Below, piece after piece: positions 10,959 to 17,744 of a DNA stretch of 25,269 bases. The stretch's first letter is position 1. Each line of letters begins with the position of its first letter. This DNA is from a virus, in IMG/VR virus record IMGVR_UViG_3300042456_000176, positions 1 to 25,269 of that record; one strand, given 5' to 3'. The notes under the pieces are model-generated. The model had not been told where the DNA came from, did not search any database, and saw nothing but the letters and a program-made list of their open reading frames with translations. The position numbers were made by a program, and so were the translations under genes.

Positions 10959-13900
10959 ATGGCAACACTTGCACAGCTTCGGGCATATTTTCCCACTGCT
11001 GAGTCTGACTCAGACGCTATCAAAATGGCGTCTAAGCAGTTTGGTATTGACCCAGCTGAAATTGCTAACGAAGTTGGGTTTAAGTTTAATAAGCCCGGGT
11101 TCATGTCGGACATTAAACGTGGAACTGGCCAAGCGATTGGTGCGATTGGTTCAACTGCGCGTGATCTTGGTTTGCCTACTATTGGTAAAGCCGTTGAAGG
11201 TTATGGGGAAGATGTTGCATACCGCAACCCCTCGCAGATCAATACTGTTGGTGAAGCTGTTCGTAGTCCACTGACTACCATTCGTGAATCTGTCGGCGAA
11301 ATTATTCCACAGATTGGAACGTCTCTTGGTGCCGGTATGGCAGGTCGCTTTGTCGGTGGCGCTATTGGTTCTCTTGCAGGCCCTGGCGGTACTGTTGCAG
11401 GTCAAGCCATCGGTGGTGCTGCGGGCACATACCTTGGTAACTTAGCCCAGTCATATGGTGGTATCCGCGCTGAACAACGCGAACAAGGTATTGAGGACAA
11501 AGGCCGTGCAGCTGCTGCTGGTGCAGGTTCTGCTGTATTGGATACAGCGTTTGGTGCTGAGCGTGTTGTAAATAAGTTTCTTACCAAGGGCTCTGACATT
11601 CTTGCTCGTGAAGCCGGTACAAGTTTACTCAAGAATGTTGGTAAACAAACAGCTATTGGTGTTGGAACTGAATCTCTTACCGAGGGTGTCCAAACTGGAA
11701 TAGAGCGTTATGGTGCCTACAAACCGTTAACCGGTGATGAAGCTCTTAATGAATATGGCTTAGCCATGATCAAAGGCGGTATCGGTGGTGGTGTCGTCCG
11801 TGGTGGTTTGGCTTCTATTTCTGGTGAGCGTCCAGTTGAAGGTGGCAACGATATCCAACAAGCCTTTAGCCAACCAAACGTCAGTGGTACACCTACTACA
11901 AATGTAGTTCCGCCTGTAACACCGCCTCCCACACCTCCAGCCGCTACTCTTTCGCCTCCTGCTGTAACAGGTGGGACGACAGACATTGCTCAACAAACAC
12001 AAGCAGCTGCAGCAGAAAACCAACAAGTACAAGAAGCACAACAAAACTTAGTCAAGCGTGAAGACGTCTTTGGTAAAGTTGCCACACAGTACGACCCTGC
12101 CAATCCAACGTCGTTAAACATCTTTGGTCAGAACATTGAAGGCCCACGTGTTGCACCGTTTGGTGATCGATTCGCTGCAGTATTTAATACACTGCCCCCG
12201 CACGTTCAGGAAATTGCCCAAGCAATTACACAAGCAAACAACGCGTTTGCTACACCTGAGAAGCCAAGTCCCTTGGTTAGTTTTAGCTTCAATGCTAACA
12301 ACCCTGTGCCTTCAGCAGATAAAGCTGTTGCAGCCCTTGGTAAAGTGATGACCAAGTTTCAGATTGACCACGTGCAATCAAAAGATGAGGCCGTACAGAT
12401 TCTCAACAAACTCTCGACGACTACCAAAGGTAATCAACTGGAGCAACTCAACGCCATCTACGAAGCTTTGACCGGCCAAGACACAGATGGTTTTACAGCA
12501 GCACAAGCCACTAAGGCAGAAAAAGGAGCTAAAGATGGAAAATTGCAAACAACTACCGGGATGGGAACAGTTCCAATCCAAGGCGGAACAGAGCAAGCAA
12601 ATGCAGGAAATGATGGGAATGTACAACCCAGCGGAGTTCAATCCCTCGGGACAGGAGGTCTCCCTGAAGGATCGCTTGGCCTCCAAGTTGGACAGCAGAC
12701 AGCAGAAGGAATACGGACTGGCACCAGTGGAGTATCCGATGTTGTCGGTGGTAACGCGCCGTCGCAAGTAATTGGAGCACCCAATGAACAAGCCGTCCAA
12801 GCAACAGTTGGTGAGTCCGGACAGCCCAGCGTTCCAGCCATGGTTGAGCCAACTGTGGCAGAAGGCGCAGGCCCGCGAGTCTACAACCCCCAAATCCCTT
12901 ACTACGCCACAGACCTCAGCCACATCAGCTCGACCCGTCGAGTCGAAATCCGAAACAACTTAATTCGCGCAATCCTTGCTCCCAAGCAAGAACGCAAAGG
13001 GGCAATGACCCTTGAGCAACGAATTGAGATGGTGATGATGGCGCTTAGCGCCGGAGATTCCCATGCGGATATTGCCGATCGTTTGAAAGTTCCTGAGTCC
13101 ACAATTCAGAAACAGCTTGAGCGGTTGGGGATTGTCATTAAGCCTCGTCTTACCGAAGCACAACAAGGTGAAGTTTCTTCTATTGAAGAGCGCCTAGGCA
13201 TCCCTGCTGGTACTCGTAATACTACGGCAGATAAGTTTGCTGTATCTAAAGCAATTACTGCAGAGCTTCCTGTTGAGGAAACTGCCAACTTGGTTAGTCG
13301 CCTTAACGAGCTGTATAAATCCGCTGGTAGAGCTTATGGTATGGACCCAGTTGAAGGTGGTAAAGCCTTTGACGACTTGTTACTTGACGCTGGTGAAGCT
13401 TACCGTTCACCCGAGTTTCCCGATGGTATTGGCGCAGGCGAAATTATTTACTTGTATAGCCATGACCGAAATGTTTCTACCAAAGAAACTGCAGCAGACC
13501 AGCAAGCCAAGGAAATGGGTGCAGCTACTGCTGAACAGTTGGAAGAAGCTGGCTTTGGAACTGTCGCTACTGGTGGCGGAAGCCAAGGTGCTGTGGGTAC
13601 ACAGGCAACGTCTCTGTTTAACCAAGCCGAAAAACTGCAGAACGACTTAGCCAAACTAGAAGTTGGTACGCCAGAGTACACAGCTAAAGCAGAGCAGCTT
13701 GCTGCTTTGTGGAATAAGTACGCTAAGAAACAAGCCAGCCTAGAGAAGGCTGAGTCCACTACCGTTGAAGAAGGGGAAGAGAATGCCGTTCAAGAGCCAA
13801 GCGCAGAGGAAGTTCCTGTTCGCGAAGGAGCCGGAGGTGGCAAAAAGGTGGGCAAAGGAAACGCCAAAAGGGGCAAAGCTGCCGGAAAAACTGAAGTCAA

Positions 13901-16900
13901 GCCAGAGCCCAAGCAAGAAGCCAAGTCCGAAGAAATAAAGACACCCGCTGAAGAGTGGGCATACGCAATTCGATTTGCACCGGAGTTACCCCCTTATGAC
14001 GTTCTTAAGAAGGATGAAAAAACTCGCTGGGATGATCTCGTCCGTCGTGGACAAGCTAACCTTGCGGCTGCTGTCAAAATTGTCGGTGAGAAGCCTCAAC
14101 CTGCTGGCGCAACATTGGCCAACGAAAAGCCTGAGACAACGGGCACTGATGGAACTGCTGAAGCGGTAAACAGCAAGAGCGCCAAGTTCATGGAGTTCTC
14201 TGACCTTGAAGATGAAGTCAAAGGTATCAGTGATGTTCGTGAACAGTTTGCGGACATGGATATAGAGAACGCCCTAGACTTTGTGTCTGATTGGCAAGTT
14301 GTTACTGACCGTTCCAAAGACGCATTCCATGGACAACTCAAGACCGAGAATGGCAGGTACATTGGTGTACTGAATCTTGCCAAAATGTCAAACCCTGCAT
14401 ACGCAGCGGAAACAGCTCGCCACGAAATTGCCCACGCAGTTGATATGACCCCACATGGCGGTGTGTATTCACACCAGCTCGAAATGAATGTGGAGATCAA
14501 GAATGGTAAAGTTGTTCCTGTTGGCGAAGTTGCTAAGGAAATGTTTGAGTTGTTCCAGACTAACAAATCATTCACAACCTTCCTTGACTACCCATTCAAC
14601 ATTCAAGTCCACACTGACCTAGACACCAATGGCAAAATTGAGAGCGAACTGTTTGCACAGATTTTCTCTATCTATACAAACCCAAAGTACACAGACTACA
14701 TCGCATCAGTCGCGCCCAAGACTGCTACTTTCTTGGAAGAGGTAATCAATGACATTCGCACAACGACAGCGCTTCAAGTCCAGAAGAGCACAACTGCAGC
14801 AACAAGAGCCATCGACTTCCGTAATCGATATACCGCCCGCCGCAATCAACGGGCGGCTGAAGTTTATGGCGGAAATAGACAAGCAAATGAAGGACCAGTC
14901 AACAGACTCGGCCAAGGCCGAGAGTTCACAGCCGACCAAGTAATTGGCTCACTGCCCAAACCGTTGCAGTCTTCGGCTCGCAGCCAGTGGACTAACATCA
15001 AGACTCTAGCCAAACGTGGCTTGTATGCTTCTGCAATTACAGAAGACGTTATCGGTATGGCTAAGAAGTACATGCCTTCTGCTGCCAAGTACCTGCAAGC
15101 TCAGTATGCCCGTCAAGGCACACGCTTGGAATTTGAAAAGCGTATTGAAGACATTTTGTCCTCGTTCGACAAGTTACCCGCCAACCTCAAAGGTGAAGGT
15201 AAGGGCAGTGTCAACGAATACATCCATGATTCCACTCGCGAGAAGAAGTGGGGCTACTATCCTGGTGAGCAACAAGTAGGCACTAAGTTGTTTGAAGTTG
15301 ACCCAGACTTTAAAGAACGCTTTGATGCATTCCCGCCTGCTGCCCAGCGGTTGATCAAACAAGTATTTCAGCATGGCTACGAAGCCCTGAGACTGAAGCA
15401 GATGGCTGCTGAAAACGCAGTGAACCGCGAGTTTGACTCACGTATTAAAGCTGCTGGTAACGATGCAGACTTACTGCAAAGCTTGAACAAAGAAAAGCGT
15501 CAGATGCTCAAGCGTATTACCAGCTTGCGTAACGTGAATGTGTCTGACCCGTATGCATACCTTGGTCGCTATGGTGACTATGTCGTGGTTGCCAAGTCCA
15601 AAGAGTTCATTGCTTACGAAGAAGCTGCTACAGGCACGCGGTCTAGCACAAGAGGCGACTCTATCGTTGGCGACCCACAGCAAGCCAAGAACTGGTTGCA
15701 AGACAATGTGTCCAATCCGCTCCACTACGTAGTCCAGTTTGCTGAGACACAAGGTGAGGCTGATGACATTGCTGCTGAACTACAAGCCACTGGTCAGTAT
15801 GATGTACAGCCCGAAGACGCTGGTATTAAAGAAGCAAATGCTTCTTACGCCGGTGGTTCAGATGTTCACATGGCTGTGGCCCGCTTGCGTAACTTGGCCC
15901 AACGCCAGACCGAATCCACGGACGGTAAGCTAGAGAAAGCTATTTCTGATCTGTACTTGATGACTGTAGCGGAAGCCAGTGCACGTCGCTCTGAACTTGA
16001 ACGCAAGAATGTCTCTGGTGCAGATAAGAACATGATGCGCAACTTGGCTACCAGTGGTCGTGCCGATGCACACTTCTTGGCTACGATGGAACACAGTGAC
16101 GAACTCAATGATGCACTAGAAGCCATGCGCAACGAGGCGCGGAACAACCGCAAGGACGCGATGCCTCTGTACAACGAACTGTACACTCGTTACGCGGATA
16201 GCATGGAGTACTCCCAGCCAAGCGTGTTGGCGCAGAACCTTTTGCGTATGTCAACACTGTGGAACTTGTCCACTAGCCCTGCGTACTATCTCCAGCAGGT
16301 GCTTCAGACTTCTGTGTTGTCCTTGCCATACATGGCAGGCCGTCTTGGTTACTTCCGTTCAGCTCGTGCAATCAAGCGTGCTTACGGCGACATGTCTTAC
16401 CTCGTAGCGGGTCTGGATATCAACGACCATATTGACTTTGACAAAGCACATCCTGATGTACGCTTCATGCTTAAAGAACTGGTCCGCATGGGCAAGATTG
16501 ATATTGGTATTGACGCTGATGCCAAAGCCCGTACAGACGAGCAAGGTGCGCTTGGCAAAGTGATGTTCAAGCTGCAAGGTATCAATACACGTATTGAATC
16601 AATCAACCGTGCTACAGCTGCCATCGCGGCTTACCGTGGATACCTTGAGCGATACAAAGGTGCTACTGGCGGTGACGCTATCCGCTTTGCTGCCGACGTG
16701 GTATCCAACACGCATGGTAACTACGATGGATTCAACACACCTCGTATCCTCCAGAGCGGTGGTGCTAAGGTCTTGCTGCAATTCAAACGCTTCCAGATCA
16801 TTCAGCTGTCCATGCTTGCCAAGCTGATCCACACTTCGTTTAAAGGCGCTAGTGCAGAAGAAAGAGCTATTGCTCGTGCATCGTTGAAATACATTACTGC

Positions 16901-17744
16901 GCACATGGCTGTGCTTGGTGGTGCTTTGGGTGTACCGTTTGTGTCTCAAGCTGCAAGCATTTTGTCTAGCGTGTTTGGTGACGAGGATGAGCCCGACGAT
17001 TATGAGTACAAGTTACGACGCATGATAGGTAATGATGCTGTAGCTGATTTGGTGCTTCGTGGCGTACCTGCCGCGCTTGGACTCGAATCTATTGGTAAGC
17101 GTCTGTCTATGGAAAACGTTGCGTCGCCATTTGGTCCATTCGTTGACTTCAACTTAACATCTCGTGCAGATGCGGCTCAGATGATTGTGGGGATGATGGG
17201 CCCAGCAGTCGGTTTGGGACTGAAGTTCGTTGACGCGCTTGGCATGATGGCCAAGGGTAACTACTACAAGGGCTTAGAGTTGGCGTTGCCAAATGGTATT
17301 GGCAATGCGATGAAGGCGTACCGCTTCGCCACTGAAGGCATTACGATGCGCAATGGGGACTTGGTGATGAAGCCGGAAGATATCAGCATGATTGATGCTG
17401 CTTTCCAAGCTGTTGGTCTCCCCACTTCGACCATTACTGACAGGCAATACACTCAGAAAGTGGTTGCGGAATTTGACAAGTTCTATGCATCTCGTGCAGG
17501 CGAAATCAAAGCGATGTATGTGGAAGGCTCTCGACAGAGCGATGCAGCAGCGATGGCTGAGGCTCGTGATGACTGGCAGAAATTGCAGGAGTCGAGAGTT
17601 AAGAACGGATACAAGCGTCAGTCAATGTCTGAGTTGTTCCGTGCACCAGCTGAAGCGCGTAAGCGTGAGCAAAGTGTTGTGGGTGGCGTACAAACCACTA
17701 AATCAAATCGTAAGTTAGTCGAGCAAGTAAGCTCAGGTTCTTAA
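10959..17744 (+). CDS. Giant multidomain virion/ejection protein with HTH, HEIAH metallopeptidase motif and LPD38-like C-terminus
   Basis: 2261 aa, the largest gene here. N-terminus: MATLAQLRAYFPTAESDSDA, then a glycine-zipper region (about residues 119-165, GAGMAGRFVGGAIGSLAG) and a second alanine/glycine helix block (about 185-235). A Pro-rich linker lies near 305-350. A helix-turn-helix lies at about 683-728 (SAGDSHADIADRLKVPESTI). Residues 1075-1290 contain a zinc metallopeptidase motif HEIAHAVD (His1155, Glu1156, His1159) with a candidate third ligand in ESELFAQIF (about 1228-1230). The C-terminal about 930 residues are large helical domains (YIHDSTREKKWGYYPG; LLQFKRFQIIQLSMLAKLIH), the latter resembling LPD38-type polyvalent-protein domains, with a hydrophobic segment near 1978-2005. 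Four +1-frame ORFs lie on its linkers. Its order after two ejection-type genes suggests a gp16-like DNA-ejection role. Confidence 0.85.
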   Translation: MATLAQLRAYFPTAESDSDAIKMASKQFGIDPAEIANEVGFKFNKPGFMSDIKRGTGQAIGAIGSTARDLGLPTIGKAVEGYGEDVAYRNPSQINTVGEAVRSPLTTIRESVGEIIPQIGTSLGAGMAGRFVGGAIGSLAGPGGTVAGQAIGGAAGTYLGNLAQSYGGIRAEQREQGIEDKGRAAAAGAGSAVLDTAFGAERVVNKFLTKGSDILAREAGTSLLKNVGKQTAIGVGTESLTEGVQTGIERYGAYKPLTGDEALNEYGLAMIKGGIGGGVVRGGLASISGERPVEGGNDIQQAFSQPNVSGTPTTNVVPPVTPPPTPPAATLSPPAVTGGTTDIAQQTQAAAAENQQVQEAQQNLVKREDVFGKVATQYDPANPTSLNIFGQNIEGPRVAPFGDRFAAVFNTLPPHVQEIAQAITQANNAFATPEKPSPLVSFSFNANNPVPSADKAVAALGKVMTKFQIDHVQSKDEAVQILNKLSTTTKGNQLEQLNAIYEALTGQDTDGFTAAQATKAEKGAKDGKLQTTTGMGTVPIQGGTEQANAGNDGNVQPSGVQSLGTGGLPEGSLGLQVGQQTAEGIRTGTSGVSDVVGGNAPSQVIGAPNEQAVQATVGESGQPSVPAMVEPTVAEGAGPRVYNPQIPYYATDLSHISSTRRVEIRNNLIRAILAPKQERKGAMTLEQRIEMVMMALSAGDSHADIADRLKVPESTIQKQLERLGIVIKPRLTEAQQGEVSSIEERLGIPAGTRNTTADKFAVSKAITAELPVEETANLVSRLNELYKSAGRAYGMDPVEGGKAFDDLLLDAGEAYRSPEFPDGIGAGEIIYLYSHDRNVSTKETAADQQAKEMGAATAEQLEEAGFGTVATGGGSQGAVGTQATSLFNQAEKLQNDLAKLEVGTPEYTAKAEQLAALWNKYAKKQASLEKAESTTVEEGEENAVQEPSAEEVPVREGAGGGKKVGKGNAKRGKAAGKTEVKPEPKQEAKSEEIKTPAEEWAYAIRFAPELPPYDVLKKDEKTRWDDLVRRGQANLAAAVKIVGEKPQPAGATLANEKPETTGTDGTAEAVNSKSAKFMEFSDLEDEVKGISDVREQFADMDIENALDFVSDWQVVTDRSKDAFHGQLKTENGRYIGVLNLAKMSNPAYAAETARHEIAHAVDMTPHGGVYSHQLEMNVEIKNGKVVPVGEVAKEMFELFQTNKSFTTFLDYPFNIQVHTDLDTNGKIESELFAQIFSIYTNPKYTDYIASVAPKTATFLEEVINDIRTTTALQVQKSTTAATRAIDFRNRYTARRNQRAAEVYGGNRQANEGPVNRLGQGREFTADQVIGSLPKPLQSSARSQWTNIKTLAKRGLYASAITEDVIGMAKKYMPSAAKYLQAQYARQGTRLEFEKRIEDILSSFDKLPANLKGEGKGSVNEYIHDSTREKKWGYYPGEQQVGTKLFEVDPDFKERFDAFPPAAQRLIKQVFQHGYEALRLKQMAAENAVNREFDSRIKAAGNDADLLQSLNKEKRQMLKRITSLRNVNVSDPYAYLGRYGDYVVVAKSKEFIAYEEAATGTRSSTRGDSIVGDPQQAKNWLQDNVSNPLHYVVQFAETQGEADDIAAELQATGQYDVQPEDAGIKEANASYAGGSDVHMAVARLRNLAQRQTESTDGKLEKAISDLYLMTVAEASARRSELERKNVSGADKNMMRNLATSGRADAHFLATMEHSDELNDALEAMRNEARNNRKDAMPLYNELYTRYADSMEYSQPSVLAQNLLRMSTLWNLSTSPAYYLQQVLQTSVLSLPYMAGRLGYFRSARAIKRAYGDMSYLVAGLDINDHIDFDKAHPDVRFMLKELVRMGKIDIGIDADAKARTDEQGALGKVMFKLQGINTRIESINRATAAIAAYRGYLERYKGATGGDAIRFAADVVSNTHGNYDGFNTPRILQSGGAKVLLQFKRFQIIQLSMLAKLIHTSFKGASAEERAIARASLKYITAHMAVLGGALGVPFVSQAASILSSVFGDEDEPDDYEYKLRRMIGNDAVADLVLRGVPAALGLESIGKRLSMENVASPFGPFVDFNLTSRADAAQMIVGMMGPAVGLGLKFVDALGMMAKGNYYKGLELALPNGIGNAMKAYRFATEGITMRNGDLVMKPEDISMIDAAFQAVGLPTSTITDRQYTQKVVAEFDKFYASRAGEIKAMYVEGSRQSDAAAMAEARDDWQKLQESRVKNGYKRQSMSELFRAPAEARKREQSVVGGVQTTKSNRKLVEQVSSGS
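12535..12771 (+). CDS. Nested +1-frame ORF 1 within the giant gene (78 aa, unknown)
   Basis: ATG 12535 is preceded by AAAAGGAG (12521-12528) at 6-nt spacing, an SD as good as any stand-alone gene here. The peptide is well balanced and looks foldable: MENCKQLPGWEQFQSKAEQS, a Met-rich helix (MQEMMGMYNPAEF), an amphipathic helix (EVSLKDRLASKLDSRQQKEY) and GLAPVEYPMLSVVTRRRK. The giant's own frame over the same bases is a featureless Gly/Gln/Thr/Val linker (residues 526-604). Of 19 Gly codons in that main-frame stretch, 10 are GGA, against 2 of 27 at 11101-11465 (hand count), as expected if the other frame is constrained. No family recognised. The frame opens further upstream (12487), but only this ATG has an SD. 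Confidence 0.6.
   Translation: MENCKQLPGWEQFQSKAEQSKQMQEMMGMYNPAEFNPSGQEVSLKDRLASKLDSRQQKEYGLAPVEYPMLSVVTRRRK
12784..12963 (+). CDS. Nested +1-frame ORF 2 within the giant gene (59 aa, unknown)
   Basis: Starts 12 nt after the stop of nested ORF 1, in the same frame, with GGAG (12774-12777) 6 nt before ATG 12784. The peptide has a plausible folded start (MNKPSKQQLVSPDSPAFQPW, then LSQLWQKAQARES) and a disordered Ser/Thr/Pro tail. The overlapped main frame (residues 609-668) is again linker-like at its start, but becomes more structured (YNPQIPYYATDLSHISSTRR) towards the end, so the tail may be under weaker selection. The tandem arrangement with its own SD makes ORFs 1 and 2 look like a small operon inside the giant gene. 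No family recognised. Confidence 0.52.
   Translation: MNKPSKQQLVSPDSPAFQPWLSQLWQKAQARESTTPKSLTTPQTSATSARPVESKSETT
13783..13938 (+). CDS. Nested +1-frame ORF 3: MPFKS-type small phage protein
   Basis: A 51-aa ORF inside the giant gene in its +1 frame. The first 35 residues (MPFKSQAQRKFLFAKEPEVA, then KRWAKETPKGAKLPE) closely resemble a family of tiny phage proteins that I recall as separate genes, with consensus MPFKS..Q.R...A..P.iAK.W...T. and a Lys/Pro end. AAGGGGAAGAG (13770-13780) gives an SD just before ATG 13783. The giant's own frame over these bases (residues 942-993) is a low-complexity Glu/Gly/Lys linker using codons uncommon elsewhere in the gene (GGA, AGG). A random frame giving this sequence is very unlikely. 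The family's function is unknown to me; the cationic, Trp-containing helix suggests nucleic-acid or protein binding. Confidence 0.78.
   Translation: MPFKSQAQRKFLFAKEPEVAKRWAKETPKGAKLPEKLKSSQSPSKKPSPKK
14749..14943 (+). CDS. Nested +1-frame ORF 4 within the giant gene (64 aa, unknown)
   Basis: ATG 14749 follows GGAAGAGG (14735-14742) at 6-nt spacing. The peptide has a basic helix (MTFAQRQRFKSRRAQLQQQE), a hydrophobic/proline turn (STSVIDIPPAAINGRLKFM) and a charged helix with a Ser/Lys tail (AEIDKQMKDQSTDSAKAESS). In the giant's frame the same bases encode the linker (about residues 1264-1328) between the HEIAH domain and the large C-terminal domain. It is in the same +1 frame as nested ORFs 1-3. 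No family recognised; coding status is inferred from SD, composition and the shared pattern. Confidence 0.52.
   Translation: MTFAQRQRFKSRRAQLQQQEPSTSVIDIPPAAINGRLKFMAEIDKQMKDQSTDSAKAESSQPTK

Follow-up and report, generated by a model that had tools for sequence, protein, structure and literature searches.

The small frame inside the giant

Can one segment of a phage genome be a gene in one reading frame and part of a much larger protein in another and, if so, which of the two readings is the older? The question is raised by positions 13783-13938 (+ strand) of a virus record of 25,269 bases, the whole of which was analysed and is here called the window. Its late region has a gene order like that of T7-like podophages, consisting of an Rz-like spanin, an endolysin, an internal virion protein (PHROG 511), a tail fibre, a structural protein of the head/packaging class and a giant ORF of 2261 aa (10959..17744, +). 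The segment lies wholly inside this giant. A sequence-only reading had proposed that its +1 frame hides a small phage protein of the MPFKS type, while the main frame over the same bases is an ordinary linker rich in Glu, Gly and Lys. The coordinates and the translation were both reproduced: the nested gene, N3, is read in the +1 frame relative to the giant as MPFKSQAQRKFLFAKEPEVAKRWAKETPKGAKLPEKLKSSQSPSKKPSPKK (13783-13935, +), a small basic protein of 51 aa belonging to the MPFKS family (PHROG 1375), and ends at a stop codon at 13936-13938. Translation of the giant frame over the bases of N3 gives NAVQEPSAEEVPVREGAGGGKKVGKGNAKRGKAAGKTEVKPEPKQEAKSEEI, which is indeed a linker of the kind described. 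Scans for Rfam families and tRNAs, covering the region or the window, gave no matches.

The host ORF is of the polyvalent type, with a DarB-like/PLxRFG C-terminal part. Its residues 1511-2255 match PHROG 10089, 'DarB-like antirestriction' (E 8e-54), and it has homologues in named phages. The giant agrees with the phage polyvalent proteins described by Iyer et al. (2017; PMC5512222), being very long and combining a DarB-like C-terminal region with an HExxH motif of the type seen in zincin-like peptidases. Judging from that work and from its position in the late operon, it would be packaged in the virion and injected. The difference is that linkers here double as other genes; a text search of Iyer et al. 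(2017) returned no mention of overlapping or alternative-frame genes, and the annotations of Erwinia phage PEp14 and Klebsiella phage SopranoGao place no gene inside their DarB-like giants.

Homology of the small protein

An open +1 frame is by itself unremarkable: when the codons of the giant are shuffled without altering its protein, 46% of the shuffles still have the frame open, so that homology, and not openness, is the evidence for N3. The match to PHROG 1375 is modest (E 6.7e-4, 21 bits, residues 3-46 against positions 17-65 of a profile of 70), and the best tblastn match among stand-alone genes of named phages has an E of 2e-4. With an HMM trained on 72 stand-alone copies and no others, N3 scores 79.2 bits; when the giant was synonymously shuffled 3000 times, the small frame reached a maximum of 37.8 bits (mean 7.2, sd 6.9). 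The kinship with a known family that had been claimed for the alternative frame is thereby borne out, since a search of phage proteins with the 51-aa product retrieves stand-alone small genes as well as PHROG 1375.

The likeness to PHROG 1375 and other 'MPFKS' proteins lies in an N-terminal MPFKSxAQRxxxxxxxPxxAxxW...TPxxxxLP core, a length of 40-60 aa and a basic tail. The positions M1, P2, F3, K4, Q8, P17 and A20, and the following TP and LP, are invariant or nearly so in the alignments of both nested and stand-alone copies, and 13 of 19 stand-alone relatives match the PHROG 1375 profile. The small protein had no match in the PDB by sequence or by fold and none above the cut-off in Pfam; its AF2 model consists of two helices and a disordered basic tail (mean pLDDT 75). 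No published description was found, the literature matches to MPFKS, among them a paper on the isolation of a phage, being unrelated as judged by title and abstract.

The genes next to stand-alone MPFKS copies are mostly those for the terminase large subunit, the portal and the head-tail adaptor. This neighbourhood suggests that the small protein belongs to a late head or packaging module. As a small, basic and helical product of late gene expression it might act in head assembly, in packaging or in the binding of DNA inside the virion; perhaps it is a DNA-binding protein.

Nested, stand-alone and fused relatives

The case made from the sequence alone was, if anything, understated, for the nest is widespread and the giant carries further nested ORFs. 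IMG/VR stretches were scanned with six peptide patterns, which yielded at least 446 confirmed relatives; further scans added to these, and the copies were classed by their surroundings. Nesting in a large ORF was seen for at least 64 distinct full copies. Every one of those listed has the same phase (giant = small +2), such that a host codon begins with the third base of a small-frame codon. Among the matches listed, none is nested in a large ORF (≥400 aa) in the other phase. The hosts comprise the window-like DarB giants and several families that have little or no other similarity. Stand-alone copies number at least about 80, in virus and bacterial contigs, and in at least 22 copies MPFKS forms the N-terminus of a larger protein (102-1517 aa).

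Named phages also carry the gene: it is a stand-alone gene in Streptomyces phage Vorvolakos (gp48) and in phage 023Pt_psg01, and in phage C75C1 and Synechococcus phage S-CBS2 it stands alone where the annotation leaves a gap. All the named-phage copies examined are separate genes, the nested form having been found in no cultured phage, whereas the copies in the window and in at least 63 other cases are enclosed entirely by a giant ORF that is read in another frame.

A recruitment designed not to select on the nest, in which giants were collected by their C-terminal 760 residues only and an intact 5' end was required (n=67), found MPFKS nested in the same phase in 50 giants, outside the giant in none (0/67) and absent in 17. 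No MPFKS copy was found elsewhere in the 14 records whose giants are without the nest, and relocation within the same genome is therefore not seen. Eight bearing records have one MPFKS place each and one (L153) has two. Comparison of giants with and without the nest revealed no clean insertion boundaries.

Selection on the two frames

In window-like giants, substitution at the first, second and third codon positions of the giant is about.35-.39,.28-.34 and.55-.59 in the flank just upstream, and.289,.135 and.116 inside the nest. This inversion at the third position recurs in two other giant families, and a sliding test along the giant finds its lowest third-position region at the nest. Another way of looking at the pattern is to count from the small frame: among disjoint nested pairs, small-frame substitution at third positions (s3) exceeds that at second positions (s2) in 27 of 30, with 2 ties (p 2e-7), while spurious conserved ORFs of the same phase show the reverse, an excess at the second position (for example,.074/.341/.160). 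Aligning the main-frame linkers, a check suggested at the outset, gave the corresponding picture, in that the MPFKS frame is conserved and the linker drifts across homologous as well as unrelated giants.

The giant frame also bears marks of selection. Among the matches listed, no stop interrupts the +2 (giant) frame in 64/64 nested copies, compared with 16/80 stand-alone copies (Fisher p 8e-26), and simulation indicates that the amino acids of MPFKS leave this frame free of stops only about 6% of the time. At 80% amino acid identity, the third-position rate of the small frame is.376 in nested copies and.575 in stand-alone ones. The giant's reading of the nest is acidic and contains 0% Cys, Trp, Phe and Tyr, against 7% in stand-alone copies. 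Because the giant is uninterrupted, its linker reading requires that T be kept out of the wobble positions of the small codons, and the result is a stop-free segment without Cys, Trp, Phe or Tyr. Taken together, the openness of the +2 frame, the slowed third positions and the acidic reading devoid of these residues imply that both frames matter and that the giant is continuous; as far as codon patterns can tell, this is a same-strand nested pair with selection acting on each frame.

The fixed phase requires an explanation, given that chance favours the other phase, which would be open in about 60% of cases. The nested pairs may share a common descent, or the linker product may be under selection. 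Overlaps shifted by one base are known to be in excess generally (PMC2542354).

Translation start

Direct reading of the bases before the nested ATG shows a Shine-Dalgarno-like AAGGGG (13771..13776, +). In the window, N3 is thus preceded by a G-rich stretch without a strict Shine-Dalgarno (SD) motif; two relatives (L008 and L010) have AAGGAG there. Among the matches listed, strict SD 4-mers precede 28 of 64 nested copies, compared with 484 of 4627 other ATGs of the same phase, which is a 4-fold enrichment (p 1.5e-11); among those listed outside window-like giants, the motif is present in 13 of 44. All aligned nested copies keep the nested ATG, and in most cases a stop codon closes the small frame upstream of it, at a median distance of 6 codons. 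The best inference is that ribosomes would start internally on the giant's late mRNA to make N3.

Weighing the explanations

In our judgement, 13783-13938 is very probably dual-coding: an MPFKS gene with its own start on the late giant mRNA and, in the other frame, an acidic and unstructured linker of the giant. The notion that the small ORF is a chance by-product of a conserved giant linker could appeal to the ease with which the frame stays open in synonymous shuffles, but its probability is practically negligible. It is refuted by the third positions of the giant, which vary less than the other two positions within the nest and more than them in the flanks; moreover, the HMM score of N3 lies beyond that of every shuffle, stand-alone homologues occur where no giant frame exists, and true by-product ORFs of the same phase show the second-position excess. 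It has also to be considered that the small gene is real and that the giant is in fact two genes flanking MPFKS, joined by an open frame that is incidental or an assembly artefact. In four relatives (L065, L113, L142 and L206) a large ORF does end a few bases from a stand-alone MPFKS. Nonetheless, a split giant is hardly credible when giants are continuous in dozens of independent contigs, when their frame is open across the nested copies far beyond expectation and when substitution at the small frame's third positions is slower where it is nested. The small product might, finally, come from ribosomal frameshifting on the giant and not from a start codon of its own, as the shared strand, the +1 phase and the many copies outside window-like giants without a strict SD would allow. 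We regard this as quite improbable in view of the invariant ATG, the stop codons that usually close the frame just upstream and the enriched SD 4-mers, to which it can be added that stand-alone copies start at the same Met.

The order in which the two readings arose is a separate matter. In a weak tree of 40 columns without an outgroup, nested and stand-alone copies are interleaved, and the changes of state number at least 5 if only those forced by supported branches are counted and 18 by parsimony. Overprinting usually puts a new frame in an old gene (PMC8227390), and the same interleaving could be produced if MPFKS had been born by overprinting inside the giant and had later escaped to a stand-alone existence. 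This polarity is nevertheless rather unlikely. The phages with stand-alone or N-terminally fused copies are more diverse, and among them are actinophages and a cyanophage that have no nested giant at the MPFKS locus; the giant's reading of the nest does not occur except in giants; and many giants with the same C-terminal part are without MPFKS. Most likely, MPFKS existed first, as a separate gene, and the acidic linker was the later of the two readings. The wide stand-alone spread and the interleaved tree favour an old gene that was enclosed more than once. The earlier contention that the linker is the newer reading accordingly draws support from both distribution and tree, although a tree of this size and without an outgroup proves neither the polarity nor how many times nesting occurred. 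Under the preferred, dual-coding explanation, a separate and older gene of the head/packaging module would have been taken later into the linker region of the giant, and its product would be translated from its own ATG on the late giant mRNA, alongside the giant.

Further nested ORFs and a possible exchangeable slot

A codon-position scan flagged regions of the giants, and alternative-frame ORFs were then clustered across 64 of them. Four more groups have a coding signature, all in the phase of N3, and the giant of the window may carry up to four more conserved nested ORFs (starts 12535, 12784, 13996 and 14749). The best supported of these is the putative N1 (12535..12771, +; 78 aa, beginning MENCKQLPGWEQFQ), preceded by the SD motif GGAG. 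Its small-frame s1/s2/s3 are.242/.184/.319 (19 loci), an SD is present in 16/17, and a scan of the collection found it nested in 49/49 analysable relatives. N2 (12784..12963, +; 59 aa, beginning MNKPSKQQ) also has GGAG as its SD, with s1/s2/s3 of.200/.256/.320 (11 loci) and an SD in 8/11. The other two are candidates that rest on less divergence or on fewer loci. N4 (13996..14169, +; 57 aa, beginning MTFLRRMKKLAG) has a weaker signature,.082/.119/.174 in 11 close relatives, with an SD in 9/11, and N5 (14749..14943, +; 64 aa, beginning MTFAQRQRFKSRRAQ), preceded by an SD-like AGAGG, has.161/.203/.244 (4 loci) and an SD in 4/4; more distant nested relatives of N5 exist. Antisense conserved ORFs in the giants, which are rich in wobble changes, were rejected: their third position coincides with that of the giant and the signal is trivial.

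One giant without MPFKS (L352) has a different gene, of PHROG 2423 (E 6.5e-16), which lies at residue 857 and is likewise nested in the phase of N3; the relatives of this gene are stand-alone genes of the head module. It resembles MPFKS in coding for a small basic head-module protein and in being nested near the same position of the giant, but its sequence is unrelated and it is absent from the window. This one example suggests an exchangeable slot in the giant, filled by MPFKS or by PHROG 2423. A broader idea, for and against which we find the balance even, is that linkers of polyvalent giants are slots that take in whole head-module genes in the one phase allowed, the other reading being an acidic linker free of stops, and can be refilled, as with MPFKS and PHROG 2423, that genes such as N1 now exist only in nested form, and that the giant is a multi-gene cassette.

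Comparison with known nested genes

Overlaps are usually explained as a new frame arising in an old gene. Here an old and widespread gene has apparently been enclosed by a larger one, and apparently repeatedly and in one phase, in phages where standard gene callers would annotate the giant alone. The locus offers a tractable case of an existing gene taken in as a dual-coding segment, and it indicates that selection for other products can act on the linkers of phage giants. A further implication is that small genes within giant phage ORFs are going unnoticed; a codon-position scan can find such genes systematically.

Nested genes as such are already known. Gene E within D of phiX174 is a complete nested overlapping gene (PMC8227390), and Rz1 is annotated inside Rz in PEp14. 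Like these, N3 is a whole small gene inside a larger one, on the same strand and in another frame. In phiX174 E/D and Rz1/Rz, however, there is typically one small gene per host gene, whereas here the outer protein is 2-3.6 thousand aa long, several inner ORFs are read in a common phase, and the inner gene belongs to a family with many stand-alone members. What is unusual about this locus is the combination of a stand-alone inner family, a polyvalent-type giant as host and several inner ORFs in the same phase.

Additional nested frames in the giant

The giant gene (10959-17744, plus strand) contains several further nested reading frames, all of them in the same phase as the nested MPFKS gene. 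The first, N1 (12535-12771), starts MENCKQLPGWEQFQSKAEQ and is conserved, and in all 49 of the analysable relatives it is nested; it has no family match. It is followed by N2 (12784-12963) and by the candidates N4 (13996-14169) and N5 (14749-14943). N2, N4 and N5 all show a coding type of substitution pattern, are provided with Shine-Dalgarno-like sequences and have relatives in other giants, and the standing of N4 and N5 as nested frames is less certain.

At about 14420-14440 the giant itself encodes HEIAH, which fits HExxH, a motif of zincin-like peptidases that polyvalent proteins typically carry; in a relative, the matches to Pfam fell below the cut-off.

A different small gene is nested in one other giant: that of L352 lacks MPFKS and carries, at residue 857 and in the same phase, a PHROG 2423 gene (L352:8196-8339; MPLKPGSSRKAIGENIKTEESVGRPRKQAIAIALSKAGKARPRPKGK).

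Doubled, separate and fused MPFKS genes

One giant, in L153, holds two nested MPFKS-like copies (L153:9479-10183) spaced 522 bases apart, the first without the usual MPFKS start. Synechococcus phage S-CBS2 (from 34225) and phage C75C1 (from 34579) have stand-alone MPFKS genes that their public records leave without annotation, either completely or for the most part. In four relatives (L065, L113, L142, L206) a large upstream ORF stops a few bases from the stand-alone gene, an arrangement that is possibly intermediate between the separate and nested states. Elsewhere (L062, L064, L073, L119, L074, L018) MPFKS forms the N-terminus of larger proteins, recurrently of 192 aa and otherwise of 425 and 1517 aa, and such fusions may hint at its role.
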